A stretch of DNA of 35,058 nucleotides from a virus. The translations under genes and the position numbers were made by a program. The notes beneath the pieces are model-generated. The model saw nothing but the letters and a program-made list of their open reading frames with translations. It was not told the origin of the DNA and searched no databases. Positions 13,001 through 34,401 of this stretch are shown here, one piece after another (the first letter of the stretch is position 1; the number at the start of each line of letters is the position of its first letter). Where the stretch lies: positions 1 to 35,058 of the IMG/VR virus record IMGVR_UViG_3300044624_000956; one strand, written 5' to 3'.

Positions 13001-16000
13001 ATGGCAGAATTCAAACTTAGTAGATTCAAATATACATGGCACGGAGAATGGACTCCGGGTGCTAGATACAATCCCGACTATGTGGTCAGCTACGGCGGCA
13101 AAGTATATGTCAGCTTAGAAACACATAATTCCAACACCAACTTCTATGCTGATCTAGACTACTACAACAACGACAGTCCACCCCTGTTGGTTCCTAAATG
13201 GGAATTAATAGCAGACGGAGTTAGCTGGCTGGGAGATTGGACCAACAGCACATACTTCAAACGAGGTGACACGGTCAAATACGGCGGAGTGGTATATCTC
13301 TGTGTAACAGGGCATACTTCAAGTCCAGCCATTATATACGATGCCGAGGGAAATGTAGTATCTTCTCCAGGTTTAGCAGCCTTTGCTAGCGATACTGTAA
13401 ACTGGACAGTGCAGGTTAGTTCACAAGACTGGAAAATCGATTGGGCTGTCAATACCTACTACAAGATCAATGATGTTGTGAGATATGGAGGTATTGTATA
13501 CCGTTGCGTAGACTCACACCTGTCAGCAGCTGACCTTGCTGGAGGACTTGAGGGTAGTCAAGCACAGTGGGCGGTGGTATCACTGTCAGACGATTGGCGC
13601 GGCGACTGGACCATAGACACACGATTCAAGGTCAATGACGTTGTAAAATACGGCGGCAATGTCTATAAATGTCAGTTAGCACATACATCTGCATCTAATG
13701 CTGCTGACGGGCTACCGGCCGATCAAGCTAAGTGGGCGTCATTGCATGTTGGAGTGGAATACAAAGGTTCCTGGACCGCATCACAAATATACAAGTTAAA
13801 TGATGTGGTAAAATATGGATCATATCTATATGTGGCCACAGTCTTTCACACAAGCGGATTAGATTTTGATTCTATACATTGGAGCGTGTATTGTCCAGGA
13901 CAAGAATATGATGTTGTATGGACAACAACCACAGTATACCAAGCAGGCGATATTGTCAGCTACGGTGGAAATCTTTATGCAGCCATAGAGGCAAACACTA
14001 ATCAAAATCCAGCTGTCATACTGTCAGCTTGGGAATTGCTATTTGAGAATTCAAGAATTAGAGGCGATTGGACACAGATTGAATCTTATAAAATTGGAGA
14101 TGTTGTCAGAAGAGGCGGGAATGTCTATCTTGCACATCAAGACAGCGTAAATCAAGATCCCGATTTTTTAAATGATGACAGTACCACCAATGAGGACTAT
14201 TGGGATCTAGTGATTCCCGGTGTAAGATGGCGAGGTGTTTGGAGCCAAGATCAAATTTATCTTGCAGGCGACACCGTGGTATGGGTGGCCAGTTCATATC
14301 GTTGCCTGGACAAACACCTATCAAGCCAAACTAATAGACCAGATGATGACGGTGAAGTGGGTTCTACTCTAGAAGGTAGATATTGGGCAAAAATTACCGA
14401 CGGCAACAAGATCAACCGCATGAAAAACATAGGTGATCTAAGAACATTTGGCCCCACAGATGACGGCAGCACAGTGGGCTACAAGGCTTTAGAAATTGGC
14501 ACACAGGGATTGACTTTGGGTGTAATTAACGGTGAACCTCAGTGGGATCCTTTGGCCAGCACAGAAAAAGTATACTATGTGGCAGAATTCGGCGAGGATC
14601 TACCAACTGCCGGCACTAGCCCTCAAAATCCATGGCGTACAGTGAGATATGCCTGTGAGAATATCACAGGCTATGCTACAGTATTTGTTAGAACCGGAGT
14701 ATTTGATGAGATACTTCCGATTCGAGTTCCTGCATTTGTGGCCATAGTAGGAGATGAACTTCGCAGTACTGTGATTCAACCTGCCAACACAGTGCTGACC
14801 AATGACTACATATTGAGAATACTGGCTGCTGCAGATTATGTCAAGACCATGTTGAATTGGATTATTAGAGAATTACCTGTAGGCGATCCAGTGTTGGCTA
14901 TCGGGTCTGTTGTACGCGGCACTATTGCGCAGGATTTTTCAGGCACACCTGCCACATCCAACGAAGTGTTGATCACAACTTCATTGTTGGATCAATTTGA
15001 AACAAGACTAGAAACAAGTAATCCGGCCAGCATCAATGGTACCAACGCTATTACGGCAGATGCGGCACGACTTGCGGCTAGAGCACAGATAGTAGCCAAC
15101 AAAAATTTTATAAAAAATGAAACTACATTATATATTGATGCAGAATTTGATGATTCAACAGGAGCATTGGGCACTGAATCTCCAAGATGGAGCACAGATC
15201 TAGACAGGATATTAGATGCGGTGATCTATGACATAGCCTATGTTGGCAATTATAAAACCATAGAAGCTGCTAATTATTTTTTATGTGCCAGCGACTATGA
15301 TGTCAACAAAGTTCAAAACATGTTCTTGATGCGTGATGGAACAGGACTAAGAAACTGCACACTAAGAGGTCTTAGTGGAACACTTGGTGCACAAAGCATA
15401 CTTGGTACTCGCAGACCAACTGCCGGAGCATATGTTTCATTGGATCCAGGTTGGGGAGTAGCAGACTCTACAGCTTGGGTAGGAACAAAATCACCGTATG
15501 TACAAAACGTATCAACATTTGGCACAGGCTGTATTGGCTTTAAAATTGACGGCGACCTACATGCCGGCGGCAATCAAACCATGGTTGCCAACGACTTCAC
15601 CCAGATTCTTTCGGACGGTATAGGAGTATGGTGTAACGGAACAGGTAAGTCAGAGTGTGTGTCAATTTTCACATACTACAATCACATAGGCTATCTCTGT
15701 ACCACTGGCGGAAAAATTAGAGGAACCAACGGCAACTGTTCATACGGAACATTTGGCGCAGTATCTGAAGGATTTGATTTGGCAGAAAGTCCAATCGAAG
15801 CCACAGTAAACAATCGATACTATGAAGCCTCTACCTATCAGACCTTGGTGGACAACAATGGCGGATTAATGAAATTGTTTTATTCACATGCTGGAAATGA
15901 ATATACCACAGCTACTGCATCAATTCTAGCAGCCGGCACGGGAGGTGAATTTGCATTTGACGATATCAGAGATGGAGCTGTATCAGAAATTAGAATTACC

Positions 16001-18590: not shown

Positions 18591-21500
18591 ATGGCTGAAT
18601 TTAAACTAGGTAGATTGAGATTTGTATGGAAGTCAGACTGGGTAACCGGCACTACATACTTCAAAGATGACATCGTTGCTTATGGTGGCAAAACATTCTT
18701 ATGCGTGGTGGGTCATACTGCTGCCGCTGATTTTTACACCAATTTAGATAATATTCCCACTAAGTGGAATCAATTCAGTGACGGCCAAGATTGGAAAGGC
18801 AACTGGGGATCTTCAACGCTGTATAAAATCAACGACATAGTGAAATATGGCGGATACCTGTACATCTGTAATGACGGTCATACTAGTTCAAGCACACTAG
18901 AAGCTAATCAAGGCGATTGGGATATATTTGCAGAATCGTTTGATTGGCAAAATGCTTGGTCCACTGGTTATGTCTACAAGGTAAATGATCTTGTAAAATA
19001 TGGTGGTTACGTTTACCTATGTAACACAGGTCATACTTCAGCTGCCACCGCAGCATCAGGTCTTGAAGCCGATCAAGCCAAATGGGATCTATTCAACAAA
19101 GGACTTGATTGGAAAGGTGTATGGAGTACTTCGGTACGATACAAGGTGGGAGATCTTGTAAAGTATGGCGGAAAAACCTATGTGTGTAATCTACATCACA
19201 CATCAAATGCCAGCGCAGCATCTGGTCTTGAAGCCGATCAAGCCAAATGGGACTATTTCAATGAAGGCATAGAATACAAAGGACAATGGGTAACAGCCAC
19301 TAGATACAAAATTAATGATGTGGTAAAAAATGGTGGCGGTACTTATATCTGTGTGATTGAACACACAGGCGCCGGCAATTTTACCACAGACTACAATGCC
19401 GCACGTTGGAATCAATTTGTTGAAGGCATAGAATTTGAAGGTGAATGGTCCGCAGGCCCTACCTATCAACCAGGTGATATTGTACGCTACGGCGGCAACA
19501 GCTATATCGCTAAAACTGCACATATTTCTTCAGGTGGATCTCCTCCAAGCACCAATACCACTGATTGGGACCTGTTTACTACAGGATTTAGATTGCAAGG
19601 AGATTGGAATTCAGGCACAGCCTACAAGATTGGAGAGATTGTTCGCCTTGGTGGATACACCTATGTGGCCACAGCGGACAATACCAATCAGTCTCCGCCT
19701 AATGCCAGTTACTGGAGTCTGCTGAATCAAGGTATAGATTGGGAAGGTGATTGGGTATTAGCATCTAGTTACGTGTTAGGTGATGCTGTGAAGTTTGGAG
19801 CCAACAGCTACATTGCTGTTCAAGCACACACATCTACTACCGGCCTAGATAGACCAGACAACGACACTATCGGTGCCTATTGGAATTTGTTGACAGCAGG
19901 TAATGAAGAATCTGCACTGTCGGCCACAGGTGATCTAGTATATTATTCAGGTGGCGGACCCACAAGACTACCAGTTGGCGACGAAGGACAAGTTTTAACT
20001 GTTGAAAACGGTTTGCCTACTTGGAATTACTTTGGTCAAGTGGCCAAGGTGTTTTATGTTGCGCCACACGGAGTAAATTCTCCTGCGCCAACATACGGAG
20101 TCACTGTGGACAAGCCATGGGCCAGCGTAAGGTATGCCTGTGAGCAGATCACTAATGGTACAGAATATCCTAATGCTGCCTATTTGCTCAAGCAGAACAG
20201 AACATTTATACAAAAAGAAATTGTAGAATATGTGAATTATCAAATCACCTATTACACAACCACAGTGCCTACACCGTCCAGCATTTGGTACAACTTTGTA
20301 AACGACAGTATTTCCGCATGCCAACGCGACATGGGATTAATTGTTGATGCCATTGTACATGATCTTACACATACTGGCAATGTTAAAACTCTTGAAGCCA
20401 CTGAATCTTATTTTTCAGCAGGTGTATTGATTGCAGCTATCAATGATGAAGAGTTTCAATTAATTGAGGCAGTGAACTACGGACTTGTATTAATATCTCG
20501 TATACTGGCTAATCTTGCTCCAGCTCAAAACTATCAAACACTTAATGGCATTGGCGCAGGCAGTAGAATCAAACAGATTATTGATGCTGCATATACTGCT
20601 GAAGCCACTGCTTACACTCAGTGCGAGTCGTTGGCAGGCATACTCACAGCAGCGTTGGCCGCAGGTGTAGACACCGGTCTTCCAGTGTTGAATACTCCCG
20701 GATATACCCTACAGGTCAAGACCGGACAATACTATGAAGTATTGCCAATTCCAGTTTTTCCAAACACAGCCGTTGTAGGTGATGAACTGCGTTCTACTAG
20801 AATTAGTCCTGCAGGCAGCTACACATCAGCCAATGACAAAGCCAAATCAATTGCTACTTTGCAAAGACTGCAATCCATCACAGATGAAATTATTACCAAT
20901 GCGGCAGTTACTCCTACAACAGGAAATATAGCCACACAGGACACCACATCACAAAAAGCAGGTAATGTAGGTAGTGCAACAGCAGTGTCTTCAGTGTCTG
21001 CAAACGCTGCTGAAATCAAAGACATTGTTACAAACAATACTCCAAATGCCTATGTAAAACCAACTCCAACAGGCGGAACTGGTAATGCATTTACCGCAGG
21101 ATACTTTGATGCTGCTCGTTTGATCAATGCTAACAAGGCGTTCTTGCAAGACGAAGTCAGCGAGTGGATACTGGCACAAATTGCTGCAAGTACCGTAGGA
21201 TTCGTTGGATTTACCTATACCGGCACACGTAGAACTAAATGTGAACGTGATGTAGGACTGATTGTTGATGCAGTGGTCTATGATTTGACCTACGGTGGAA
21301 ATCTAGCAACTCAAATTGCTGCTAGATCATACTACAGTCTTGGCGTATTCCTTGAGCCAGCAGCAGAACTAGCACCAGCATTGGCAGTACAATTACGTAT
21401 CAAAGATATCATTGACAATATTGCCACAGGCGATACTGCCGGTTGGACAAAAACTACAGCACTATCACAAGATGTTTCTGGTACAGCAGGATCAGCGCCA

Positions 21501-24500
21501 GCAGCTACCGCTGCTCAAGCACGTATTCAAGAAATATATGATACCATTAACACTGGTACTGAACCAACTACCATAGTACCAGATATCACTTGGCCAGCTG
21601 CTGCTTTGATCACTGCTAGAACAGCATTGAACACTGCTAGAACAACTATTCGCAGCAATGCCGTACAGCATGTGAAGAAATTATTTCCTACATTGAGTTT
21701 TGACGAAACACTGTGTTCACGTGATGTGGGATATATGGTAGACGCTCTAGGATTTGATCTAATGTTTGGATCAAACTTTTTGTCAATACAAAGTGGACTG
21801 TCATATCAAAGAGGCACTACATCAACACTGGTGGTTCTAAATTCACAACTAGCAGCGCAACAGGCTGTGATTGATTTTATATCTGTTGAAGCACAAAAAA
21901 TTGTGGCTACAGGAGCTGTGGTACTGGCTGACGGACTGTGGACTGATATCATCAACTATGCCAATACCGGCACAGTGCCGCTTACTGTTGGCACCAATAG
22001 TCCCACAGAAGATCTTGACAGAATTAACGGTGCAAAAATACTGCAACTAAACAAAGAATTTATGGTTGCAGAAGCCAATGCCTATATTGCTGACACATTC
22101 AAGGCCACAGTAACATCGTCAGACGCCGCTACTGATGTATTCACCTGCAGTTCACAGACATGGATGGTAGCTGGAGACACAGTGAGATTCACAGGCACTG
22201 TGTTTGGCGGAATTGCTATTAACACAACCTACTATGTTTTGTCAACAGGACTAACAGCAACAACATTTAAGGTTTCAACCAGCCTAAACGGCACAGCAGT
22301 TGATCTTGGTGCGGCATCAGGCTCAATGGTAGTCAAATGGTATTACAATTCTGCTAGCTGTGAAAATGATGTTCGCAACTATATTGAATCTATTGCCTAT
22401 GACATGGTATACACAGGCAACTACAAATCAGTTCTAGCTGCTAGATACTATAGAAATTCATTAACTGGATCTAAACTTGAAGATCTGTTCTACTTCAAGA
22501 ACGGATCAGGTCTACGCAATTGCACACTGACTGGACTCGACGGCAGTTCCGATGGTACCAATACAGGATATCAAAGTGCGTTGACTACTACGGCCAACGA
22601 ATACGGCACCTACAGACCACGTGCAGGAGCCTATGCATCACTAGATCCAGGCTGGGGTCCTAATGACACCAGTGCATGGGTAACCAACAAATCAACCTAT
22701 GTTCAAAACGTTACCACATTTGGTATCGGTTGCGTGGGTCAGAAAATTGATGGCAGCTTACACGCAGGCGGCAATGATTCTATCGTGTCCAACGACTTCA
22801 CCCAGGTATTGAGTGACGGTATTGGAGCATGGATTACCAATCTAGGTCGTGCAGAACTTGTGTCAGTGTTCTCTTATTACAACTACATCGGCTATCTAGC
22901 TGAAAATGGTGGTAAGATTCGTGCTACTAACGGTAACAACTCATACGGAACATTTGGTGCTGTAGCAGAATTCATAGATATTTCAGAAACACCTGTCACA
23001 GGTACAATCAACAACAGAGGCACAGAAGCCGATGTTCGCAGTGTGCTCACAGACGGCACTCAGATTCTACTGCATGAATTTGGCAATGCTGGTTCGGAAA
23101 ATTCATCTGCATCATTTACCATAAGCGGTACTGGAATTTCAGTGGCCACTGTGGCAGATGAATTTAGAGATGGAGCTGTATTTCAAGTAAGACTGACAGA
23201 TCCAGGAGATTCTACTGGTCCTGGCGGAGTTGGTTACATCACAGCTCAAAGTCTAGCACAGGCAGGAAACACAACTCAAATTACCCTGGCAGCTTCTGAT
23301 ATCAACAGTTCAGCAGCCTATGTTGGCATGAGCATTTACATGATTGGCGGCTTAGGAGCAGGTCAATACGGATACATAAACTCCTACTCCGCAGCCAGCA
23401 AAGTGGCCACAGTGTACAAAGAAAGCACAGGCACCCCAGGTTGGGATCATGTGATACCAGGTACACCTATTGTGGCTGCCATGGATCTTACTTCTAACTA
23501 TCAGATCACTCCTAGACTGCAATTTTCAGCACCACCCTTTACCAAAACCACTGCCGACTTGCCAAGCAGTCAAACATGGTCAGATGTGGTGTTCGGTGAT
23601 GGATATGCTGTTTATAGTGGTGTGGCTTCAACAGTATCAAGCGGCTCAGGTAGCTTGGCCACATTCAACGTCACTAGACGCTATGGCATCTACTCAGTAA
23701 CTATACAGGCCGGCGGAGTGTTGTATACGGTAGGAAATACCTTGACCGTTCTAGGATCAAGTCTAGGCGGCACATCTCCTGCCAATGATATCACAGTCAC
23801 AGTAGCCGCAGTTACTTCGCCTGGTGGCGCAATAACTAGATTTACCAGCAGCGGAACAGCAGTAACAGCCAAATTTGTAGCCATAGCAGGCGGTGTAAAT
23901 TCATCTACTAACGCAGCCGCTACCAGTCTAGACGGCATAACATGGACAGCAATGACCATGCCATCGTCACAGCAATGGTCAGCCATTGCCTACGGTGTGG
24001 TCAGCAATGTCAGCTATTATGTGGCAGTGGCTAGAGAAAGCTCAGTGGCTGCATATTCTAGAGATGGTGTAAATTGGACAGCTTCCAATCTAAATGAAGT
24101 TGCTGACTGGTGCGACATTGACTACGGCAACGGTGTATTTGTTGCTGTATCAGAAAGTGATTCTAGTTCAACATTCAGAGCATGGAGTTCAGACAACGGC
24201 ATTAATTGGAACACCACTACATTCGCATCGGGCGCCAAGGCCATTGCCTATGGTTTCAGCAGATTTGTTGTGGTAGAAGGCAACTTCTCCAACGCAGTGG
24301 CATATTCAACCAACGGTGCTACATGGACAGTGACCACATTGCCAAGCAATGATGACTCTACAGAATCAAACTGGGTAGACATTGCCTACGGTAATGGACG
24401 CTATGTTGCAATTTCAGATAGTTCTGCAATGGCAGCATACAGTTTCAACGGTGCCACATGGTACAAGAGCAACTTGCCTAGCATTGCTGAATGGAGTTCT

Positions 24501-26951
24501 ATCGGTTATGGTCAAGGCGTATTTTATGTTACCAGTGCAGGAGATGCAGCAGCAACTTCGCCAGACGGTGTCACTTGGACTCTAAGAGACGGTTCATATG
24601 CATCCTTTGATATCACAGAGACCGCACAGAACGTAAACACTGCCTATGCAGAGACAGCTACATTAACAAGTGGCACATGGAGTGATGTTATTTGGACCGG
24701 CACACAGTTTGTTGCTGTTGGTTACAGCGGTGCAGCTGGTCTAGTTGCAACCAGCACAACCGGTACATCATGGACTAATGCTACATTGCCCACAGTTAAC
24801 AGCACATATGAATATACCACAGTGGCCTATAACGGCTCAAACCAATATGTTGCAATCATTGGCGGAAACGGCGGCACTAGAAATATTGCTACATCTCCTG
24901 ATGCAGTGACCTGGACAGGAGCACTGAACGCTCTAACTACTGTTTCTTTTTGGAAAGACCTAGCCTACGGCAACGCAACTTATGTGGCCATAATGGGAGA
25001 TCTCAACAGGATCAACTATTCAGCCAACGGAACAACATGGACATCAGTAACGCTAGGCGGTGTAGCGTCGAGTGAGATGAGTGCTATAGCTTATGGTGCA
25101 ATCGGTGGAACTAACTACTTTGTTACCGTTGCTGGTTATTCAACAGGTAGTCAAGTATCTTCTTATTCTACAAATAACGGTGTTGCTTGGACTTCAGCTG
25201 CTTCACTACCTAGTTCAGACTTCTGGGCAGATGTGGCATTTGGCAACAGCAGATTTGTTACTGTTGCAGGCGGAACAGGTTCTACTTCAACCAAGGCAGC
25301 ATATTCAACCAACGGCACAAGTTGGACAGCAGCAACGCTACCAGGTGCAGCCACACGTTGGAACAAGATTGTCTACGGTGGCGGAGCATTTACTGCATTT
25401 GCTTACAACTCAAATAGAACTGCTTACTCAGTAGACGGTATTACTTGGGTTGAAGGAAATACACAAGCAGCCACTAGAAACTGGGGACCTGCAGCATACG
25501 GAAACACTAAAAACGTTGTATTAGCGACAGGCACAGCAATCGGATCTTACAACGACTTTGCATTGAATACCAACTATCTAACCACTTCAAGCACAACTAC
25601 CAAGTTAAACGTCAATGACAGAATTAGATTTATCAGCGATTCTGCAGGTTCTGAAATATTTGGTGGAGTTAGAGCTGACTCAGGTGGCCAGTTATGGTAT
25701 TATGTAACCAGCGTGGTTGACTCAACAAGATTTACACTGTCACAAACACTGGGTGGTGCTAATATTACACTGACCACAGGCAGCGGTTCTATGTTGGCTT
25801 TATCATCCAAGACCTATGTGGCCAGTGCGTTGGGCAACAACAACGGTACTCCAAATTGGGTGGTATTGGCGCAGAACAGCCAAGGAGTGCAAAATATTAG
25901 ACAAGGTGCTACAGCTCGTGCTCGTGCTTATGTGTTAGATGATGCACTAACAGAAATTTGGATACATGAGCCAGGATCGGGTTATGTGACTGCTCCAACA
26001 ATGACCATTACTGACCCTAATAACACAGGTGCAGATGCTCCTACTGTGGTACGTATTGGTAATGGTGCTATTGCACAGCCAACATATACCAATAGAGGCA
26101 CAAGTTACTCGGCTGCGGCTACTACTATAATTGGCAACGGTTATGCCGATAACTATCAGGTGGGAACTTTTGTGGGATTCACTGGTCTCAGTGGTATTCC
26201 AACAGCTGGTTCAAACGTGCAGATAGCTGGCATAGATGACATATGGTACAGACTGGTCAATGTTTCCAGCGTGTTGCCTTTGGCTGATGGCACCTACTCT
26301 GCTACTCTGCAGGTAAGCCCACCAGTTGGTGTTGCTGAAGCTCCAGAGCACTTGAGCGGCGGAATTATAAGACGTAGATACAGTCAGGTACGACTAACTG
26401 GACACGATTTCTTGGACATAGGTACAGGCAATCAAGTGAATACCAATTATCCAGGACTGCCAGTTACTGACCCGATTCCTGCCAATGAAACCATAGGCAG
26501 TGGTGGTGGTAGAGTATTCTACACTTCAACGGACCAGGACGGTAACTTTAGAGTTGGTGGATTGTTTAACGTTGAGCAATCAACGGGTGTTGCAACGCTG
26601 AATGCTGACGCTTTTAACATTGCAGGATTGAACGAGTTGAGTTTGGGCTCAGTGGCACTAGGCGGTTCAGGTGCAACAATTACTGAATTCTCAACAGACC
26701 CGTTCTTTACACAAGATTCCGACAATATTATACCTACACAGCGAGCAATTAAAGCCTACATTACCAGCCAAATTGGCGGCGGCGGGTCTAGTTTGAACGT
26801 AAATAGTCTTACAGCCGGTGTTATATTTGTGGCCGGACAAACTATTACTACAACTACAAATGTGGCAATAAACATAAATACTAAGGTGAATTTCAAAGGC
26901 GGTATTGCTGGTTTACCCCTTGTGTTAAATTACTTCTTACTAAACAATTGA
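18591..26951 (+). CDS. Giant modular tail fibre protein 2 (2786 aa)
   Basis: Paralog of the 13001 protein, with the same module order but expanded. Residues about 8-440: eight W/YGG repeats. About 500-520: VDKPWASVRYACEQI. Then four copies of a helical module with a C-x-R/N-D-x(6)-D-A/S-x-x-x-D-L/M signature (about 531-611, 840-918, 1003-1080 and 1142-1286); fibre 1 has one. The 4th copy is interrupted by a small GDTVRFTGTVFGG-type beta module (about 1173-1250). About 1295-1480: GSGLRNCTLTGLDG, GAYASLDPGWG, DGSLHAGGNDSIVSNDFTQV. About 1646-2430: 13-14 propeller-like repeats (NGATW, SPDGVTW, TNGTSW), twice fibre 1, with two beta insertions (about 1681-1759 and 2325-2408). The C-terminal block YSQVRLTGHDFLDIG / FYTSTDQDGNFRVGGLF is nearly identical to fibre 1. 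It starts with GGAG spaced 6 from ATG. No enzymatic motif was seen. Confidence 0.85.
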   Translation: MAEFKLGRLRFVWKSDWVTGTTYFKDDIVAYGGKTFLCVVGHTAAADFYTNLDNIPTKWNQFSDGQDWKGNWGSSTLYKINDIVKYGGYLYICNDGHTSSSTLEANQGDWDIFAESFDWQNAWSTGYVYKVNDLVKYGGYVYLCNTGHTSAATAASGLEADQAKWDLFNKGLDWKGVWSTSVRYKVGDLVKYGGKTYVCNLHHTSNASAASGLEADQAKWDYFNEGIEYKGQWVTATRYKINDVVKNGGGTYICVIEHTGAGNFTTDYNAARWNQFVEGIEFEGEWSAGPTYQPGDIVRYGGNSYIAKTAHISSGGSPPSTNTTDWDLFTTGFRLQGDWNSGTAYKIGEIVRLGGYTYVATADNTNQSPPNASYWSLLNQGIDWEGDWVLASSYVLGDAVKFGANSYIAVQAHTSTTGLDRPDNDTIGAYWNLLTAGNEESALSATGDLVYYSGGGPTRLPVGDEGQVLTVENGLPTWNYFGQVAKVFYVAPHGVNSPAPTYGVTVDKPWASVRYACEQITNGTEYPNAAYLLKQNRTFIQKEIVEYVNYQITYYTTTVPTPSSIWYNFVNDSISACQRDMGLIVDAIVHDLTHTGNVKTLEATESYFSAGVLIAAINDEEFQLIEAVNYGLVLISRILANLAPAQNYQTLNGIGAGSRIKQIIDAAYTAEATAYTQCESLAGILTAALAAGVDTGLPVLNTPGYTLQVKTGQYYEVLPIPVFPNTAVVGDELRSTRISPAGSYTSANDKAKSIATLQRLQSITDEIITNAAVTPTTGNIATQDTTSQKAGNVGSATAVSSVSANAAEIKDIVTNNTPNAYVKPTPTGGTGNAFTAGYFDAARLINANKAFLQDEVSEWILAQIAASTVGFVGFTYTGTRRTKCERDVGLIVDAVVYDLTYGGNLATQIAARSYYSLGVFLEPAAELAPALAVQLRIKDIIDNIATGDTAGWTKTTALSQDVSGTAGSAPAATAAQARIQEIYDTINTGTEPTTIVPDITWPAAALITARTALNTARTTIRSNAVQHVKKLFPTLSFDETLCSRDVGYMVDALGFDLMFGSNFLSIQSGLSYQRGTTSTLVVLNSQLAAQQAVIDFISVEAQKIVATGAVVLADGLWTDIINYANTGTVPLTVGTNSPTEDLDRINGAKILQLNKEFMVAEANAYIADTFKATVTSSDAATDVFTCSSQTWMVAGDTVRFTGTVFGGIAINTTYYVLSTGLTATTFKVSTSLNGTAVDLGAASGSMVVKWYYNSASCENDVRNYIESIAYDMVYTGNYKSVLAARYYRNSLTGSKLEDLFYFKNGSGLRNCTLTGLDGSSDGTNTGYQSALTTTANEYGTYRPRAGAYASLDPGWGPNDTSAWVTNKSTYVQNVTTFGIGCVGQKIDGSLHAGGNDSIVSNDFTQVLSDGIGAWITNLGRAELVSVFSYYNYIGYLAENGGKIRATNGNNSYGTFGAVAEFIDISETPVTGTINNRGTEADVRSVLTDGTQILLHEFGNAGSENSSASFTISGTGISVATVADEFRDGAVFQVRLTDPGDSTGPGGVGYITAQSLAQAGNTTQITLAASDINSSAAYVGMSIYMIGGLGAGQYGYINSYSAASKVATVYKESTGTPGWDHVIPGTPIVAAMDLTSNYQITPRLQFSAPPFTKTTADLPSSQTWSDVVFGDGYAVYSGVASTVSSGSGSLATFNVTRRYGIYSVTIQAGGVLYTVGNTLTVLGSSLGGTSPANDITVTVAAVTSPGGAITRFTSSGTAVTAKFVAIAGGVNSSTNAAATSLDGITWTAMTMPSSQQWSAIAYGVVSNVSYYVAVARESSVAAYSRDGVNWTASNLNEVADWCDIDYGNGVFVAVSESDSSSTFRAWSSDNGINWNTTTFASGAKAIAYGFSRFVVVEGNFSNAVAYSTNGATWTVTTLPSNDDSTESNWVDIAYGNGRYVAISDSSAMAAYSFNGATWYKSNLPSIAEWSSIGYGQGVFYVTSAGDAAATSPDGVTWTLRDGSYASFDITETAQNVNTAYAETATLTSGTWSDVIWTGTQFVAVGYSGAAGLVATSTTGTSWTNATLPTVNSTYEYTTVAYNGSNQYVAIIGGNGGTRNIATSPDAVTWTGALNALTTVSFWKDLAYGNATYVAIMGDLNRINYSANGTTWTSVTLGGVASSEMSAIAYGAIGGTNYFVTVAGYSTGSQVSSYSTNNGVAWTSAASLPSSDFWADVAFGNSRFVTVAGGTGSTSTKAAYSTNGTSWTAATLPGAATRWNKIVYGGGAFTAFAYNSNRTAYSVDGITWVEGNTQAATRNWGPAAYGNTKNVVLATGTAIGSYNDFALNTNYLTTSSTTTKLNVNDRIRFISDSAGSEIFGGVRADSGGQLWYYVTSVVDSTRFTLSQTLGGANITLTTGSGSMLALSSKTYVASALGNNNGTPNWVVLAQNSQGVQNIRQGATARARAYVLDDALTEIWIHEPGSGYVTAPTMTITDPNNTGADAPTVVRIGNGAIAQPTYTNRGTSYSAAATTIIGNGYADNYQVGTFVGFTGLSGIPTAGSNVQIAGIDDIWYRLVNVSSVLPLADGTYSATLQVSPPVGVAEAPEHLSGGIIRRRYSQVRLTGHDFLDIGTGNQVNTNYPGLPVTDPIPANETIGSGGGRVFYTSTDQDGNFRVGGLFNVEQSTGVATLNADAFNIAGLNELSLGSVALGGSGATITEFSTDPFFTQDSDNIIPTQRAIKAYITSQIGGGGSSLNVNSLTAGVIFVAGQTITTTTNVAININTKVNFKGGIAGLPLVLNYFLLNN
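19059..19252 (+). repeat. Pair of exact 29-bp repeats marking a recent module duplication
   Basis: The 29 bases at 19059-19087 recur exactly at 19224-19252, 165 bp (55 codons) away. They encode the linker GLEADQAKWD between successive W/YGG repeats in giant fibre 2, so a whole 55-residue unit was duplicated or converted recently. Confidence 0.85.
26873..26880 (+). promoter_or_regulatory. Possible late promoter CATAAATA inside the end of giant fibre 2
   Basis: CATAAATA matches the T4 core at 7 of 8 positions and lies 85 bases upstream of the next gene (26965), within the last codons of the fibre gene. It would allow the short downstream genes and the Cys-rich cluster to be transcribed independently of the 8.4-kb fibre gene. 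Confidence 0.4.
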
Positions 26952-27645: not shown

Positions 27646-28674
27646 ATGGCAAAACTATCTGACCTATTATCTACAAGAGAGATTACAGCCAACCAGAATA
27701 ATCTGGAAAAGGGCAAGGTCTGGGTCGTAAGTCCAACTGCAATGGCCACTTGTATTAGAAGTGACAACTTGTGGTGTTGGACATCTCCGGGTTGTGGAAC
27801 ACTCACTATTGAAATGTGGGGTGCTGCTGGTAGTGGCTCTCGCATGTGTTGCTGCGGCTTTGGACTACCTGGAAATGCACCTGGCTATACCAAAAAAACT
27901 CTAGCTGTATTTTGCGGATCAAACATTTGTGGCTGTCCAGGCCAGGCCTGCAATGCGCATGATCTTTGCTTCTCAGGATGTAGTCTACCCACATATTTGC
28001 AGTGGAAACAGGCTCGAGACCTATGCGGATACACCAGCGGTTGCATGTGCGCTCAAGGTGGTCGAGCAGGTACATCTATCTGTTCCACTGGTACCGGCCC
28101 CTACTGCTGTTTCCGTGCTGCAGGATTTTGCAATTCACAATTTACTTCTGGTGCTGCTGGTTGCGGTATTATCTGCAATCACTGCTCAGGAGGCTTCCTT
28201 GCTTGCGGTTATGGTGGCGACATCAACTGCTGCGGCTGTATTTCATACATGCACTGGATGTGCGACATCGGAAACGCAAGACCCTGTTATGTACACCAAT
28301 TTATTGCTTTTGCAGCAGGTATATTTGCTGAACAGGGTGGTATAATTGCATCCAAGCCCGACGAAGATCCAGAATACTCACAGTGGTCAGGTGCAGGATT
28401 CATGGAACACATGCATACTCTACATGCTACCAGTCGTTCGCCCACTGGCGGCGTTCCTTGGATGGGATGTTGGACCGGTGGTCAATTCTGCGGTTGCTAT
28501 GAAAACTCTGGCTGTGTGCCATATTCACCTTATGGTGTAGGCGGAGCTGCACCTATGCCTTGCGATGGTGTCAGAGATCACGGCAAACGTGGCGGCCACG
28601 GTGCCATACGATTAACATACAGAGGTTCGGGCGCCTTGAATCAAAACTGCGCAGTACTAGGAAGGGGAATATAA
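27646..28674 (+). CDS. Cysteine- and glycine-rich virion protein A (34 Cys in 342 aa)
   Basis: First of three tandem paralogs. N-terminus NNLEKGKVW, then TLTIEMWGAAGSGSRMCCCG and GFGLPGNAPGYTKK, which recall glycine-rich phage adhesin domains ('I.vWGaGGsG') with many glycine-loop positions replaced by Cys. Other shared blocks: LCFSGCS, GCMCAQGGRAGTSIC, GCGIICN, CGYGGDINCCG, FAEQGG, WSGAGF, CW...FCGCYENSGC, and C-terminal PCDGVRDHGKRGGHGAIRL. About one residue in ten is Cys, often as CC or CxC. It has no secretion signal and no known zinc-finger spacing. Unlike B and C it contains an EHMHTLH cluster near residue 263. Members of this family occur in marine T4-like phages without a known function; a disulfide-stabilised or metal-binding fibre tip is inferred. 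Ends 1 base before gene B's ATG. Confidence 0.8.
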   Translation: MAKLSDLLSTREITANQNNLEKGKVWVVSPTAMATCIRSDNLWCWTSPGCGTLTIEMWGAAGSGSRMCCCGFGLPGNAPGYTKKTLAVFCGSNICGCPGQACNAHDLCFSGCSLPTYLQWKQARDLCGYTSGCMCAQGGRAGTSICSTGTGPYCCFRAAGFCNSQFTSGAAGCGIICNHCSGGFLACGYGGDINCCGCISYMHWMCDIGNARPCYVHQFIAFAAGIFAEQGGIIASKPDEDPEYSQWSGAGFMEHMHTLHATSRSPTGGVPWMGCWTGGQFCGCYENSGCVPYSPYGVGGAAPMPCDGVRDHGKRGGHGAIRLTYRGSGALNQNCAVLGRGI

Positions 28675-28675
28675 A

Positions 28676-29914
28676 ATGGCACTACTCACACAATTATTAG
28701 GTAATCGCGAGCAGGCCTTCGAAGACAATCTTGAAAAAGGTAGAATTTGGGTCTATACAGACGGCAATATGTACACCTCATTCTGTAATGGCTTTTGCTG
28801 GCGTTCTCCGGGTACAGGATGTATAGTGATCGAATCCTGGGGTGCTGCTGGTTCAGGAGCACAGATGTGCTGCTGTGGTGCAGGCCTACCAGGAAATGCA
28901 CCTGCGTACACAAAAAAATGTCTTTGCGTGATTGCAGGCAACTATGTCTGCGGCTACATTGGACGTTCATGCAATAACTCATCAGCACTATGCTTTAGAG
29001 GTTGTTCAGAAGCCACCTGCGTTTGCTGGTTTGGATGTTCACCAAAAGCCCTATATGAAGGTGGCTACTATCCAGGTGACAGCGACAGCTTTAAGGGCAA
29101 CAATCCTTGGGGTTGGGGCTCAGGCGGCGGCGATCCATTGAGCTCAAATGAAGGCAACGTAAACTTTCAAAACGGCGGCAATTGCGGTATCACTGGCGGC
29201 AACACATTGAACGCTAGTGGCAACGGCAACTGCTGTTCGTGGACTCAATGTCGTGCAGCAGGTGCAACTAACGGCTGCATATGCGCACAAGGCGGCAAAG
29301 GCGGCATATCAATTTGCATAGATTCAATATCTGCATATACAGTCTTTAGATGTAATTATTTCTGTGGCAGCCCCCTTGGCCCAGGCAACTCGGGTTGTAA
29401 TACAGGATCACATTGCGGTATGATCTGCAACATTTGTCAAACAACGGATGCATCACTAGGATTTATTGGCTGTGGCTACGGTGGCGACGTCAACTGCTGC
29501 GGTGGTTGGTCATGCGTATCATTCCAGGGCTGCTGGCCAATTTGCCCATGTCTAACACAGTATCATGTGCCTGTAGCCGCAAATATTTTTGCAGAAGAAG
29601 GCGGACAGTTTTCGTACACAACAAATTCAGACGGACAAGGGCCGACTGAATGGTCAGGAGCTCCGACACTCAATCAAATTAATGCCTTGACTACCATGAG
29701 TAGACAGCCTGGTCCAAATGCCTACACTACATGTTGGCCTGGTGAGCGAGGTTGTGGCTGCTATGAAATGCAGGGCTGCATGAACTTTTTTCCATACGGT
29801 GTTCCGGGCGCAGCTCCCCATCCATGTCCAGGTGTGCGTGATCATGCCAGTCGTGGTGGTATGGGAGCTGTAAGAATTAAATATATTCCAGCAACAGGAG
29901 GCACATCGTACTAA
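28676..29914 (+). CDS. Cysteine- and glycine-rich virion protein B (40 Cys in 412 aa)
   Basis: Second paralog and the longest. Shared frame: DNLEKGRIW, ESWGAAGSGAQMCCCG, GLPGNAPAYTKKCLCVIAG, LCFRGCSEATCVCW, GCICAQGGKGGISIC, CGMICNIC, CGYGGDVNCCGGWSC, FAEEGG, WSGAP, RGCGCYEMQGC and HPCPGVRDHASRGGMGAVRI. Relative to A and C it has about 70 extra residues (about 123-195), rich in Gly/Asn/Ser/Trp (GNNPWGWGSGGGD, GNGNCCSWTQC), inserted between the CVCW block and GCICAQGG, probably an enlarged recognition loop. Spacing of 1 base from gene A and 1 base to gene C indicates translational coupling; AGGGGA precedes its ATG. Same family and same uncertainty as A. Confidence 0.8.
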   Translation: MALLTQLLGNREQAFEDNLEKGRIWVYTDGNMYTSFCNGFCWRSPGTGCIVIESWGAAGSGAQMCCCGAGLPGNAPAYTKKCLCVIAGNYVCGYIGRSCNNSSALCFRGCSEATCVCWFGCSPKALYEGGYYPGDSDSFKGNNPWGWGSGGGDPLSSNEGNVNFQNGGNCGITGGNTLNASGNGNCCSWTQCRAAGATNGCICAQGGKGGISICIDSISAYTVFRCNYFCGSPLGPGNSGCNTGSHCGMICNICQTTDASLGFIGCGYGGDVNCCGGWSCVSFQGCWPICPCLTQYHVPVAANIFAEEGGQFSYTTNSDGQGPTEWSGAPTLNQINALTTMSRQPGPNAYTTCWPGERGCGCYEMQGCMNFFPYGVPGAAPHPCPGVRDHASRGGMGAVRIKYIPATGGTSY

Positions 29915-29915
29915 C

Positions 29916-30908
29916 ATGGCAAACTTAAAAACACTTGTAGAAGCCAAACTTGATCAAATAGAGTTTGACGAAACAAATCTAGACAAGGGCAGAGTCTGGG
30001 CCTATAGCCCAGGTTCAGAATACACAAACTTTGTCAACGGATTTTGTTGGATTGCCTGTACCACAGGCAAGGTCATTTTGGATGTGTGGGGCGCTGGCGG
30101 CAGTGGTGCTAGAATGTGCTGCTGCGGACACGGTGTGCCAGGAAATCCAGGTGCATGGTCACGCAAATGTATTTGCGTAATAGCTGGCTGTTATATCTGT
30201 GGTCACGTGGGCAAAAGCTGCAACAATGCTGATGCACTGTGTTTCCGTGGGTGTTCCGAAGCATCATGTGTGTGCTGGTATGGCAGGAATCCTTCAACTG
30301 GCGCTGCCATAAACGGCTGCATGTGTTCACAAGGTGGACGTGGGGGTACAACCTATTGCAATCCATCGGGCGTAATTTTCTGCTGTTTCATCAGCGGCAA
30401 CTTCTGTAACACCAACTATTCCAACGGTACCTGCGGCATTATTTGCAATTACGGTTCGGGTACAGGATCATGCTGCGCAGAGTCCTACGGCGGCGATATA
30501 AATAAACGCGGTGGATTTAGCTGTGTGACATTCTGGACCTGTTATTCAAACTGCCCATGTTCAACACACTATCACACAGCCATTCCTCCAGGCATGTTTG
30601 CCTGTGATGGCGGCGTAGTCAGTACAGGTATGGATGACAACAACGGATTTTCCAACTGGTCAGGAATGGGATTCCATCAGTTCAGCCAAGGTATCAATGC
30701 CATGAGCCGCTCACCAAATCGAGGAATCCCATTTACTGCATGTTGGACCTCCAACAGAGCCTGTGGCTGCTATGACGTACAAGGATGTATGCCATTCTTT
30801 CCAGTAGGAGTAGGTGGTTTACCAGCTAATCCCTGCGGTGATGTTCGTGACAACGGATGGCGCGGCGGCCTAGGATTGGTTAGAATTAATTTTATTGCAA
30901 AGGATTAA
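29916..30908 (+). CDS. Cysteine- and glycine-rich virion protein C (34 Cys in 330 aa)
   Basis: Third paralog. TNLDKGRVWAYSP, DVWGAGGSGARMCCCG, GVPGNPGAWSRKCICVIAG, LCFRGCSEASCVCW, GCMCSQGGRGGTTYC, CGIICN, YGGDINKRGGFSC, FACDGG, WSGMGF, RACGCYDVQGCMPFFPVGVG and NPCGDVRDNGWRGGLGLVRI. It follows the B layout but without B's long insert. The CC pair that follows GGD(I/V)N in A and B is Lys-Arg here. An AGGAGG lies 14 bases upstream of its ATG, inside gene B. The N-terminus is slightly longer (KLDQIEFDETNLDKG), perhaps an attachment helix. Function as for A and B: probably an exposed virion protein, unproven. Confidence 0.8.
   Translation: MANLKTLVEAKLDQIEFDETNLDKGRVWAYSPGSEYTNFVNGFCWIACTTGKVILDVWGAGGSGARMCCCGHGVPGNPGAWSRKCICVIAGCYICGHVGKSCNNADALCFRGCSEASCVCWYGRNPSTGAAINGCMCSQGGRGGTTYCNPSGVIFCCFISGNFCNTNYSNGTCGIICNYGSGTGSCCAESYGGDINKRGGFSCVTFWTCYSNCPCSTHYHTAIPPGMFACDGGVVSTGMDDNNGFSNWSGMGFHQFSQGINAMSRSPNRGIPFTACWTSNRACGCYDVQGCMPFFPVGVGGLPANPCGDVRDNGWRGGLGLVRINFIAKD
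30497..30504 (+). promoter_or_regulatory. Perfect late-promoter box TATAAATA inside Cys-rich gene C
   Basis: An 8/8 match to the T4 late core, in the sense direction, about 400 bases before the gene at 30911. It lies exactly where paralogs A and B encode the Asn-Cys-Cys that is missing from C. It could be chance. Confidence 0.35.
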
Positions 30909-30910
30909 AA

Positions 30911-31555
30911 ATGAGAAAAGCGTTTACAACGGTTATGCCGGACGAACCATATAAAACAACCACCAAGAAAAATATCACAGTGGATTGCGTTTACATCGGT
31001 AAAAGATATCTGCTGGTTAGATTCAACAACGATGGCACCATATTTGCCTTGGAAAAACAAGGTGAAACACTGCCGGAAGTTGAGATGTACAAACTCACAG
31101 AGCAACAACTGGCAGCAGAAAAACAATTTCAGATTGTTATAGATGCAGAAGTCAATACATGGGAAGCTGCACATCTAACACACGATTATGAACACGGAGC
31201 AGTAGCTGACCCAACATTTACTCTAGCAGATGGCAGTACATGGACCTATCACTATGATGATTTTCATGGCGCATTGGATCAACCCTACTATACCAACGAC
31301 ATGAGGTACGATCGTGCTACTAATACTTTGATTCGTCCTAGATATCGTACTCATGCGGTAACCAAAGAAACGTTTTGGGCAAACATGAACGATCAACTCA
31401 AGGCCTTTGAACTTGCTGCCGGATCAACTAGCTATCTACCAGAAAGACTAACAGAAATTAGAGCACATAGAGATTGGTTAAAAACTGCTATTACAAAATA
31501 TGCAGGTGAAGATCACTGGAAAGTTCCGTTCCCAACTAGTACGCCTTCAATTTAA
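30911..31555 (+). CDS. Unassigned protein downstream of the Cys-rich cluster
   Basis: 214 residues, mixed alpha/beta, not Cys-rich. N-terminus MRKAFTTVMPDEPYKTTTKK, then VYIGKRYLLVRFNNDGTIFA. A helical segment follows (YKLTEQQLAAEKQFQIVIDA, about 60-79). The middle is TFTLADGSTWTYHYDDFHGA and the C-terminal helix is YLPERLTEIRAHRDWLKTAI. The last helix, with R..L..iR..RDwL, is reminiscent of tail-fibre assembly/chaperone proteins encoded next to fibres, so an assembly factor for the Cys-rich proteins is possible, but the similarity is only a pattern. AAAGGA ribosome binding site, 2 bases after the previous stop. It ends the structural block. Confidence 0.72.
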   Translation: MRKAFTTVMPDEPYKTTTKKNITVDCVYIGKRYLLVRFNNDGTIFALEKQGETLPEVEMYKLTEQQLAAEKQFQIVIDAEVNTWEAAHLTHDYEHGAVADPTFTLADGSTWTYHYDDFHGALDQPYYTNDMRYDRATNTLIRPRYRTHAVTKETFWANMNDQLKAFELAAGSTSYLPERLTEIRAHRDWLKTAITKYAGEDHWKVPFPTSTPSI

Positions 31556-31640: not shown

Positions 31641-32582
31641 ATGTCTAGATCGAAAGCATTTTTTATAAATGGCGGCGCTGGTAGAATGATTAGTTCTGTT
31701 CCAGCTTTTGAAAAATACCTAGAGGAATCAGATGATAAAGATTTTATCATTGTTTGCGAAGGTGGAACAGATGTCTTTAAAGGACATCCTAAACTAGATG
31801 ATCGTGCCTACGACATCTGGCACAAGGGTCTTTTCAAAGACTACTTGAAAAATCGTGAAATTGTCACAACAGAACCCTATAGAGTCTGGGAATACTACAA
31901 CCAACAATGTTCAATTGCACAGGCCTTTGACATACAGGTCAACAACAAAGGACTACGAGAACTGCCAAAACCTACACTTAGGTTGTCCAAAGATGAACTA
32001 CTGAATGGTAGATCAGTGGTCAGCGAAGTAAAGAAAAAACTTAAAAAAGAAAAACTAGTGGTATTTCAACCCTATGGCCGAGGTGTTGAATACATTGACG
32101 AAACCTTGCTTGACCGCACAGCACGAAGTTTTGAATTAAAAGACGTAAAAGCCATAGTGAAAAAGCTGCAACAAAATGACTATGCAGTGATAATGATGAG
32201 CGAGTTCAAAACAGATCTATCAGATGCTAAACTCAAAGAAGAAGTGGCCATGCCTGAAAATGTCAACATGCGAGTTTGGGCAGCAATAATCAAATATGCC
32301 GATCATTTCTTGGGTTGCGATAGTTTGGGACAACACCTTGCATATTCAATGGAAACTCCATCAACAATTATCACAGGAGCCACATATCCTATAAATGTGT
32401 CTTATCCGGATTGCGAGTATTTTGAAATACTAGACATGGGCGAAATACATAGAGAATACGATCCTATCAGAATTTTACCTGATGAGCGAGTGAACAGAAT
32501 AAATGAAAATATCATGTCAATGACAGACGACATAACTACACTAGTAGTAAATCACGTATTAGGAAAAAAAGATGACAGTTAA
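31641..32582 (+). CDS. GT9 (heptosyltransferase)-like glycosyltransferase
   Basis: 313 residues. N-terminal KAFFINGGAGRMISSVPAFE (5-24) is a glycine-rich loop after the first strand, as in the GT-B enzymes of family GT9 (ADP-heptose-LPS heptosyltransferases). The second Rossmann-like domain begins near KLVVFQPYGRG (138-148), continues with YAVIMMSEFK, and contains AIIKYADHFLGCDSLGQHLA (215-234) followed by METPSTIITGATYP. This matches the GT9 signature D-x-F-x-G-x-D-(S/T)-G-x-x-H-x-A-x-A-x-x-x-P, with a leucine within the D-S-L-G. It therefore probably transfers a sugar from an NDP-sugar; acceptor unknown. GGAG (31632-31635) before ATG; overlaps the next gene by 11 bases, so both act in one pathway. 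It is not a structural protein and is preceded by its own candidate promoter. Confidence 0.75.
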   Translation: MSRSKAFFINGGAGRMISSVPAFEKYLEESDDKDFIIVCEGGTDVFKGHPKLDDRAYDIWHKGLFKDYLKNREIVTTEPYRVWEYYNQQCSIAQAFDIQVNNKGLRELPKPTLRLSKDELLNGRSVVSEVKKKLKKEKLVVFQPYGRGVEYIDETLLDRTARSFELKDVKAIVKKLQQNDYAVIMMSEFKTDLSDAKLKEEVAMPENVNMRVWAAIIKYADHFLGCDSLGQHLAYSMETPSTIITGATYPINVSYPDCEYFEILDMGEIHREYDPIRILPDERVNRINENIMSMTDDITTLVVNHVLGKKDDS

Positions 32583-34401
32583 AACCATATCAGCAAAAAA
32601 ATCAAATAAACCCGTGTGGGTCGCAGCCATTGCTCGCGGACATAATGCAGGCATCTGTCTACTAAAAGACGGAGAGATTGTATTTTCTATCGAAGAAGAA
32701 AGATTGAGTCGTCAAAAGTATGACGGCGGTCCGCTTGCGTCAATGGTTAAGATTTTAGAATACACAGATAAGCTAGACTTTTTGGTTGTAGCACATACAC
32801 AGAGTCTTGCAGATTCTTCGGGAAAAATTGATTATACCGGCGACGATATGTACACTGGCCTAGCTCGAAAGTTAGGACTAATTGATAGAAAAGTAGCTAA
32901 CCTACACAAACATCCTCAGGTGATTGATCTCAGTTTCATGCATCACAAGCTGCATGCTGCCTGCGCATTTTATCGTTCAGGTTGGGAAGATGCAGTTTCT
33001 TTGATTGTTGATGGTGCAGGCACATTCTATCAAATGAGTTACAACGACCAACCACTGTGGGTATGGGAAGTTGAGTCTATTGTTGATTGTGCATATCCTG
33101 CAGATTTCAAAACTCTTTACAAAAATTACGGTGCAAGAGATCCTATTGTTGGAACATTTCAAGCTGAATTTCCTTCTGCAAATTTAGGCGAGGATGGCGA
33201 AACACACGAAGCATGGGTTAGTGATCGTGCAGGCATTGTCAAGGCCTACGAGGGAGTAACTGAATATTGTGGATTCTCAGCTATTGAAGCTGGAAAGACT
33301 ATGGGATTATTTCCATACGGAAAAGCCAACAATAAAATTCCTCCGTTGTTTGATACAACATCTAAAATTCCGTTAACAAATAGAAACTTATTGGTGCCAA
33401 AATATCCAATGAGTAGCATGGTTAATTCACAACTATTTGATTATATTGACGAATTTCCTGAAGATCCTAAAGGTGATGTTACCTACATGGACAATCGTAG
33501 AGATATGGCCTATGCTGTTCAGACACAGACGCAAGAACAGGTGGTAAGACTAATCAAATTAGCCGCAGAAAAAAGTGGAAAGAATCGTGTTGTTATTTCC
33601 GGAGGCTATGGATTAAACTGTGTTGCTAACTATCATTATCTAGAAGAATTAAAAGATAGCGGCATTGAAATTTATGTTGAACCTATCAGCAATGATGCAG
33701 GTACAGCAATGGGCGCAGGTCTGCTGTTCTATCATGGCATGTATGACGATACTACCATACGTAAATACGATACTTTGTATTATGGCCCTGTACACACTTA
33801 TACCAGTGAAGAAATTGCTGCAAAGGCAGAAGCTGCTAATGCAGAAGTTACAGATGCTACAGCTAAAGACATTGTCAAGCTGTTACGTGAAAAAAACATT
33901 GTGACTATCTTCCAAGGACGTTCAGAAAACGGACCACGTGCCCTAGGCAATCGTTCAGTGCTGTTTGATCCAACATTTGAAGACGGCAAAGACTATGTGA
34001 ATGCAGTCAAGCATCGTGAATACTTCCGCCCATTTGCGGGAAGTATTCTAGAAGAAGATGTACACGAGTGGTTTGATTTACGTGGAATGAAAAACAGTCC
34101 ATTCATGATGTACGCTGTAAACTGCCAGCCAGGAGTTGAAGAAAAGATTCCAAGCATTATTCACGAAGATCATACCTGCCGTATTCAAACAGTTAATCCT
34201 GAGCAGAACAAGCACTACTATGATTTGATCAAAGCATTCAAAGATGAAACAGGCGTTCCTATCCTGTTTAATACCAGCTTTAATCTAGGTGGCGAACCCC
34301 TAGTAGAAACACTAGATGATGCTATTTGGACATTACAAAAGTCAGAAATTGAATACCTGTACTTGCCCGAGTACAGTAAACTAATTAAAATTGCCAACTA
34401 A
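32572..34401 (+). CDS. Carbamoyltransferase of the NodU/CmcH/TobZ family
   Basis: 609 residues, full length for the family (about 550-600). It transfers a carbamoyl group from carbamoyl phosphate via carbamoyl-adenylate to a hydroxyl. The N-terminal Kae1-like domain shows ARGHNAGICLLKDGEIVFSI (21-40), EEERLSRQKYDGG, the metal-binding H-x-x-x-H at 124-128 (HHKLH), VDGAG with Asp147, GGYGLNCVANY (344-354) and NDAGTAMGAG (374-383). The C-terminal domain has FQGRSENGPRALGNRSVLFD (447-466), REYFRPFAGSILEED (482-496) and LFNTSFNLGGEPLV (565-578). All expected catalytic and metal ligands seem present. Relatives act on antibiotics and Nod factors; some phage members are reported to carbamoylate 5-hydroxymethylcytosine in DNA. 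The 11-bp overlap with the GT9-like gene suggests a glycan or glycosylated target instead, or both. A terminator follows directly. Confidence 0.93.
   Translation: MTVKTISAKKSNKPVWVAAIARGHNAGICLLKDGEIVFSIEEERLSRQKYDGGPLASMVKILEYTDKLDFLVVAHTQSLADSSGKIDYTGDDMYTGLARKLGLIDRKVANLHKHPQVIDLSFMHHKLHAACAFYRSGWEDAVSLIVDGAGTFYQMSYNDQPLWVWEVESIVDCAYPADFKTLYKNYGARDPIVGTFQAEFPSANLGEDGETHEAWVSDRAGIVKAYEGVTEYCGFSAIEAGKTMGLFPYGKANNKIPPLFDTTSKIPLTNRNLLVPKYPMSSMVNSQLFDYIDEFPEDPKGDVTYMDNRRDMAYAVQTQTQEQVVRLIKLAAEKSGKNRVVISGGYGLNCVANYHYLEELKDSGIEIYVEPISNDAGTAMGAGLLFYHGMYDDTTIRKYDTLYYGPVHTYTSEEIAAKAEAANAEVTDATAKDIVKLLREKNIVTIFQGRSENGPRALGNRSVLFDPTFEDGKDYVNAVKHREYFRPFAGSILEEDVHEWFDLRGMKNSPFMMYAVNCQPGVEEKIPSIIHEDHTCRIQTVNPEQNKHYYDLIKAFKDETGVPILFNTSFNLGGEPLVETLDDAIWTLQKSEIEYLYLPEYSKLIKIAN

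Follow-up and report, generated by a model that had tools for sequence, protein, structure and literature searches.

Cysteine is usually scarce in virion proteins that are made in the cytoplasm. What, then, could be the role of three neighbouring phage proteins in which about every tenth residue is a cysteine? The question is raised by IMG/VR virus record IMGVR_UViG_3300044624_000956, a stretch of 35,058 nucleotides (hereafter the window, meaning that stretch at its full length), in which three paralogous genes, called here A, B and C, follow one another with a single base between A and B and between B and C. The answer proposed here is that their products probably make up a three-subunit, cross-linked host-binding tip. 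The match of the predicted fold, the family to which the proteins belong and the fibre genes around them make host-recognition adhesins at tail-fibre tips the best reading of A, B and C, and I consider it likely.

A preliminary description of the locus had reported the cysteine counts of the three proteins (Table 1), the one-base spacers and an arrangement of the cysteines in CC, CCC and CxC clusters, all of which, coordinates included, proved exact. In each protein there is a single CCC, together with four CC pairs and between five and six CxC motifs; CxxC occurs only once or twice. Cysteine amounts to about 10% and glycine to about 16–17% of their residues; the 20 other open reading frames of the window hold 53 cysteines in 9,727 residues (0.54%), a background from which about 2 cysteines per protein would be expected, versus the 34–40 observed. 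Judged by sequence, A, B and C are certain to be true coding sequence.

A cysteine-saturated branch of a widespread family

The proteins align with one another (A and B are 49% identical, A and C 43%), and the IxxWGAAGSG block, the CCC and the CxC positions coincide in the alignment, so that the shared WGAAGSG framework previously proposed is real. So is the extra loop of about 70 Gly, Asn and Ser-rich residues attributed to B: it is present in B orthologues as well, where it is the least conserved stretch (conservation 0.39–0.54 over most of its length). By contrast, the EHMHTLH cluster of A, put forward as a distinguishing site, exists but reads EHAHTLN, QHQYAQN or NQQYAIN in orthologues; given this variability it is not a signature, and a metal site at that position was rejected. 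The A lineage itself, at the first position of the triplet, is retained in relatives.

Conservation of the cysteines was read from a profile of 59 relatives, with columns numbered as in protein C. Cysteine occupies 14 columns in at least 95% of the sequences and 15 more in 50–95%; C69 and C70 are invariant, and position 68 is a cysteine in 55 relatives. Within the A, B and C orthologue groups, cysteine has the highest conservation of all residue classes (0.92–0.95), compared with 0.66–0.73 for residues other than Cys, Gly and Trp. The stretch between C215 and C276 is nearly devoid of cysteine, and this segment is the least conserved part of A. All 20 columns with at least 90% cysteine use both TGT and TGC, and the ratio of nonsynonymous to synonymous substitution rates of A, B and C, computed against two relatives, is 0.07–0.18. 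Codon switching at conserved positions under such constraint shows that cysteine itself is under selection.

By profile match, A, B and C belong to a widespread uncharacterised family, PHROG_4205, annotated as of unknown function, which 58 of the 59 relatives match at a threshold of 0.01; matches are listed for A, over residues 1–326, and for C, and B is not listed. The preliminary description had mentioned marine-phage relatives lacking an assigned function, and such relatives were indeed found in isolated cyanophages that carry the same cassette: S-CAM1 (36, 31 and 25 cysteines per copy), S-CAM3 (36, 35 and 24) and P-SSM2 (36 and 36). Cassette members with 33 and 27 cysteines also occur in the single-cell virus AG-345-F15. 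The profile of the window family aligns with that of the S-CAM/P-SSM2 family over 285 columns (99.5%, E-value 1.2e-22). When 50,697 phage records were searched directly by tblastn with A and C, no match was obtained at 1e-5, and it was a relaxed search that recovered S-CAM1. A search of PDB sequences with the family profile returned no match, and literature searches found no publication on these cysteine-rich proteins.

A second scan, with search patterns that did not demand cysteine-rich stretches, added 219 further members at 75 loci, every one of them with 6.6–12% cysteine; the count takes in only members near enough for profiles to detect. Among these, no intermediate was seen between the cysteine-rich family and the low-cysteine glycine-rich proteins of phages S-TIM4, HTVC008M and Syn9. 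The relation to the latter rests on Pfam and on fold, since a profile of four low-cysteine sequences was too weak to align with the cysteine-rich one. At the curated cut-off of Pfam family Gly_rich_2 (PF21722), A, B and C do not match and the best relatives reach 0.023 (2 of 59), while the S-CAM1 and S-CAM3 members exceed the cut-off. Cysteine saturation marks a large branch of these probable glycine-rich tip proteins, a point not made before.

Predicted fold, candidate chaperone and copy number

The AlphaFold2 model of C (predicted local distance difference test score, pLDDT, 81.8; predicted template modelling score 0.81) consists of an N-terminal helix (residues 4–19), strands, extended glycine-rich loops and a final strand (321–328). 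Searched against the PDB with Foldseek, it finds the fibre of cyanophage Pam3 first (7ypx, 8.7e-6; 7yfw, 7.5e-4), and also the Bxb1 tail tip and the glycine-rich domains of ALK and LTK. Matches in BFVD include proteins of S-CAM3 and P-SSM2, Syn9 gp38 (7.3e-7) and many phage proteins named for a glycine-rich domain. The alignment with 7ypx has a probability of 1.00, with template modelling (TM) scores of 0.37 and 0.46 and a root-mean-square deviation of 9.9 over 351 columns, modest values that identify a class of fold and not a close superposition. The glycine-rich adhesin framework suggested in the preliminary description is therefore borne out by the Pam3 and ALK/LTK matches, and the zinc-finger or enzyme fold that it had named as contrary to its view did not arise in the prediction for C. 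The Pam3 fibre protein, gp24, is trimeric and comprises an N-terminal helix for docking, a TNF-like domain and a glycine-rich domain, the distal tip of which is variable and has been proposed as the host-binding part. Its chaperone, gp25, holds the fibre with an N-terminal beta-sandwich and trimerises through a helical domain at the C-terminus (PMC9608196).

The gene that follows C, at 30911, may encode the corresponding helper. Its modelled product is rich in beta structure towards the N-terminus and ends in a pair of long helices, and thus resembles Pam3 gp25/Tfa in gene position and in both domains. Its homologues adjoin the cysteine-rich genes in S-CAM1 and S-CAM3, and in P-SSM2 one with a weak score lies between them. 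The product belongs to no Pfam family and matches no known chaperone, Pam3 gp25 included, by sequence or by fold; its architecture and position suggest that it is probably a chaperone that folds A, B and C and sets them in register.

The other regularity of the family is its copy number. Whole-contig searches found three copies in 17 of 20 contigs, the exceptions being a 35 kb fragment with one, a contig with four and another in which B was counted as two pieces; three copies are also present at 70 of the 75 loci of the second set. In all, 117 loci (58 non-redundant) carry exactly three full-length copies close together. On a tree of the 58 non-redundant loci, the position of a copy within its triplet changes 13 times, versus 84 when positions are shuffled within loci. 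In a more careful tree, whose bootstrap had not fully settled and whose deep branches are weak, window-type proteins form a clade (100/99) that has three positions of its own, the three copies of locus L176 form another (100/100) and those of L166 and L175 a third (97/91). There are two ways to read this, several origins of triplets or a homogenisation of the copies by gene conversion that leaves their number at three; both fit a need for three subunits. Triplets kept as distinct lineages, together with clade-specific triplets, suggest a three-subunit tip, and three distinct paralogues maintained in 117 loci support the hetero-complex that the preliminary description had envisaged as a possibility. 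In loci L034, L035 and L036, one cysteine-rich copy lies about 22 kb away from the other two, and in L034 and L039 a single 17 kb stretch contains both the major capsid gene and a fibre array with one of the copies.

Role of the cysteines and competing explanations

How could such proteins work? Each of A, B and C would be a fibre protein of the Pam3 gp24 type, docked by its N-terminal helix, with a beta framework and extended glycine-rich loops that end in a receptor-facing tip. The 30911 product would fold and register the three chains and then be released. The protein would fold reduced in the cytoplasm, and its approximately 30 mostly conserved cysteines, spread through the loops, would form disulfides that cross-link these after the virion has entered oxic water. 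The tip would thereby become rigid, and its variable stretches (the B insert and the nearly cysteine-free segment at about 216–275) could change without unfolding the whole. Disulfides are favoured over metal binding or other roles, and for the step after release I see an even chance. The three different subunits, made together, would join in one A-B-C heterotrimer; as the known relative, the Pam3 fibre, is a homotrimer, a trimer is the probable form, though I put forward this particular composition tentatively, at somewhat below an even chance. A broader scenario, in which an aquatic phage lineage that takes in both cyanophages and jumbo T4-like phages exchanged a homotrimeric tip for an obligate cysteine-saturated heterotrimer, folded reduced by a chaperone and locked oxidatively after lysis, and in which triplets repeatedly arose or were homogenised because three subunits are needed, is more doubtful.

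Do the cysteines behave as partners? Positions 68 and 311 exchange identities (C-R in 55 relatives, R-C in 2, A-C in 1, R-Q in 1); C311 was gained three times, and these gains went along with losses of C68 (for this one pair, out of about 1,000 examined, P is 9.5e-5). Cysteines 120 and 203 were lost together in the A lineage, and 109 and 145 behave alike across relatives. The signs that particular cysteines depend on one another are suggestive. The preliminary description had also raised the idea that cysteine replaces glycine in packed sheets. Position by position within the branch this did not hold: glycine makes up 12% of the alternatives at variable cysteine columns, below its background of 18%, and none of the 25 conserved glycine columns ever contains cysteine. 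What survives of the idea is that the overall fractions of the two residues anticorrelate in the second, wider set (r = -0.54).

Several observations weigh against a cross-linked trimeric tip. The TM-scores to the Pam3 fibre (0.37–0.46) are modest, A, B and C themselves lie below the Gly_rich_2 cut-off, their placement in the virion is something that I infer, and the 30911 model has no PDB fold match under an E-value of 0.4. The number of copies is not always three: only two can be detected in P-SSM2, and a contig with four exists. As to the disulfides, the coupling of 68 with 311 is that of one pair in a large number, most co-loss of cysteines is confounded by paralogue ancestry, and cysteine totals are even in 27 of 59 relatives; even counts are thus not over-represented, which gives no indication that every cysteine is strictly paired within its chain. 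No phage-encoded oxidising enzyme was seen, in a search for sulfhydryl oxidase that had no working control, and thioredoxin was found in only 1 of 15 records.

Alternatively, the same adhesins might use clustered thiolates to bind Cu, Zn, Fe or an Fe-S cluster, for structure or for metal acquisition or sensing at the host surface. The CCC, CC and CxC clusters do resemble thiolate sites, the cysteine columns are highly invariant, and the cysteine totals give no parity signal of pairing. Yet CxxC, a common structural metal motif, is scarce, no Pfam metallothionein or zinc-finger family matches, histidine is sparse and the only His cluster, in A, is not conserved, the cysteines are dispersed along most of the chain, and the fold is that of an adhesin; metal binding is an improbable alternative. 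Covalent attachment of the virion, by exchange of free thiols with thiols or disulfides on the host surface, would suit both the high cysteine density under selection and the lack of parity, but many of the 14 nearly invariant columns belong to the shared framework, which suggests a structural role more than chemistry at the surface, and I regard this mode of attachment as very unlikely.

The heterotrimer faces a stronger competitor, in which A, B and C form three independent homotrimeric tips on different fibres, with three receptor specificities. A and B are most variable in their putative tip segments (the B insert and the segment after C215), nearby fibres with CBM and PA14 domains suggest several modes of binding, and the copy number is sometimes two or four. 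Independent tips should vary in number, however, and they account less easily for a count that is exactly three at 117 loci and recurs in several separate clades; separate tips are a serious possibility, if one somewhat short of even. That A, B and C might instead be decoration or other virion or secreted proteins is compatible with the indirect case for their location and with the relatives (L034, L039) in fibre arrays near a capsid gene. The fold match to tail fibres, and a triplet that immediately follows fibre modules and adjoins a chaperone-like gene, make this quite unlikely and speak for tip adhesins.

A large family of probable host-binding tips would thus be defined by its cysteines, and PHROG_4205, present in the model cyanophage P-SSM2, would gain a concrete role and a likely chaperone. 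The preliminary description is extended by the assignment of the window to a jumbo T4-like phage, by the family in isolated cyanophages and by the candidate fibre chaperone; new here are also the exact triplets kept as distinct lineages and the clade-specific triplets. They raise the question of why there should be exactly three subunits. If tips are locked oxidatively after release, a rigid adhesin could be built by simple means, with no need of a secretion pathway, and binding to the host should vary with the redox state.

Genomic setting and known counterparts

In the window, T4-type head genes (portal-like and gp23-like) precede a long fibre array, at the end of which lies the cassette (Table 1).

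Table 1. Triplet, associated cassette genes and upstream fibre genes of the window
Feature	Coordinates	Strand	Remarks
Giant fibre protein, 1845 residues, five CBM5/12 stretches	13001..18538	+	PF02839 4.9e-36
Giant fibre protein, 2786 residues, candidate tip carrier	18591..26951	+	putative function, from position and homology in relatives
Tail-fibre-type module, 106 residues	26965..27285	+	phrog_11338 tail fiber 1.5e-8; conserved upstream
Tail-fibre/tailspike-type module, 108 residues	27307..27633	+	PHROG tail families; conserved just upstream of triplet
A, first of three paralogues, Cys-saturated glycine-rich-domain protein	27646..28674	+	342 residues, 34 Cys; PHROG_4205 E-value 1.2e-11
CCC of A, residues 68-70, first glycine-rich loop	27847..27855	+	WGAAGSGSRM-CCC-GFGLPGN
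B, second paralogue	28676..29914	+	412 residues, 40 Cys
B-specific insert, about residues 124-192, Gly/Asn/Ser-rich	29045..29251	+	most variable part of B
C, third paralogue	29916..30908	+	330 residues, 34 Cys; PHROG_4205 3.6e-10; modelled
Candidate fibre-assembly chaperone, 214 residues, phrog_9740	30911..31555	+	model pLDDT 95.1
Conserved cassette gene, 313 residues	31641..32582	+	no Pfam match
NodU-type carbamoyltransferase, conserved cassette gene	32572..34401	+	PF16861 2.9e-58

The 2786-residue fibre begins with W..G..Y..GD.V.YGG repeats resembling those of the 1845-residue one, and a further fibre (9494–11089) has GLEYA (2.2e-21) and PA14 (3.3e-11) domains, which are better known from yeast adhesins. 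Downstream, the 313-residue gene, which I would guess to be glycosyltransferase-like, and the carbamoyltransferase (49–52% identical to the S-CAM1, S-CAM3 and P-SSM2 copies) trail the triplet in jumbo phage and cyanophage cassettes alike, with heptose genes next in cyanophages; the two possibly serve to decorate the virion, or else the host surface, with sugars. Genes annotated as cysteine dioxygenase lie near the cysteine-rich cassette in P-SSM2 (L101:17637-17993) and S-CAM3 (gp149); as the P-SSM2 protein is a small cupin (PF07883, with a weak lyxose-isomerase match), the name is doubtful.

The gp23-like major capsid protein is 65–70% identical to counterparts in jumbo T4-like phages (Sinorhizobium Phosso, 469 kb; Vibrio 2.275.O, 349 kb; PA5oct, GAP32 and CBB), and cassette relatives were found on contigs of 353–364 kb. 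The host marker psbA was not found in the 20 contigs checked, which leaves this group without evidence of a cyanobacterial host. On these genes, the window virus looks like a jumbo T4-like phage rather than a typical cyanophage, although its host may yet be a cyanobacterium. A scan of bacterial genomes for the family gave a single match, on a phage contig (PAOW01000006.1) with two cysteine-rich genes and the cassette, assigned to a marine Euryarchaeota metagenome-assembled genome; it is probably mis-binned, and Euryarchaeota were not accepted as host.

How do these proteins compare with known tips? Pam3 gp24 (PDB 7YPX, 7YFW) shares with the model of C the N-terminal helix, the beta framework, the glycine-rich loops and a partner gene, but it is the homotrimer of a single gene, compared with three paralogues in the window. 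Its domain contains 39% glycine, in GGGGxGG loops, a richness that the window proteins (16–17%) do not approach, and the description of gp24 mentions no cysteine or disulfide (PMC9608196), whereas theirs is a 10% cysteine content. That description also links gp24 to S16 gp38 (PMC9608196). S16 gp38 (PDB 6F45) and the ALK/LTK domains are sandwiches of glycine-rich loops; the latter were matched by the fold search, whereas S16 gp38 is absent among the matches listed for C. S16 gp38 caps gp37 as a separate tip protein, and ALK is a receptor kinase.

The Gly_rich_2 proteins (S-TIM4 ORF41, HTVC008M gp065, Syn9 gp36 and gp38) resemble the window family in having a GGxGGG-type loop and in standing at the end of fibre gene arrays, but contain 22–35% glycine and 0–8 cysteines, versus about 16% and 34–40. 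Syn9 gp39 (L099:9150-10328), also glycine-rich, reads as a duplicated, frame-disturbed copy of its neighbour gp38. The cyanophage members of PHROG_4205 (S-CAM1 SXBG_00224-00226, S-CAM3 gp156-158, P-SSM2 PSSM2_304/306) come from phages of marine cyanobacteria, as against the jumbo phage of the window, and are only about 20% identical to the window family in the profile alignment. They are nevertheless homologous over their full length, with 24–36 cysteines each, and their cassette is like that of the window, with genes of the 106- and 108-residue types, the chaperone candidate and the carbamoyltransferase.

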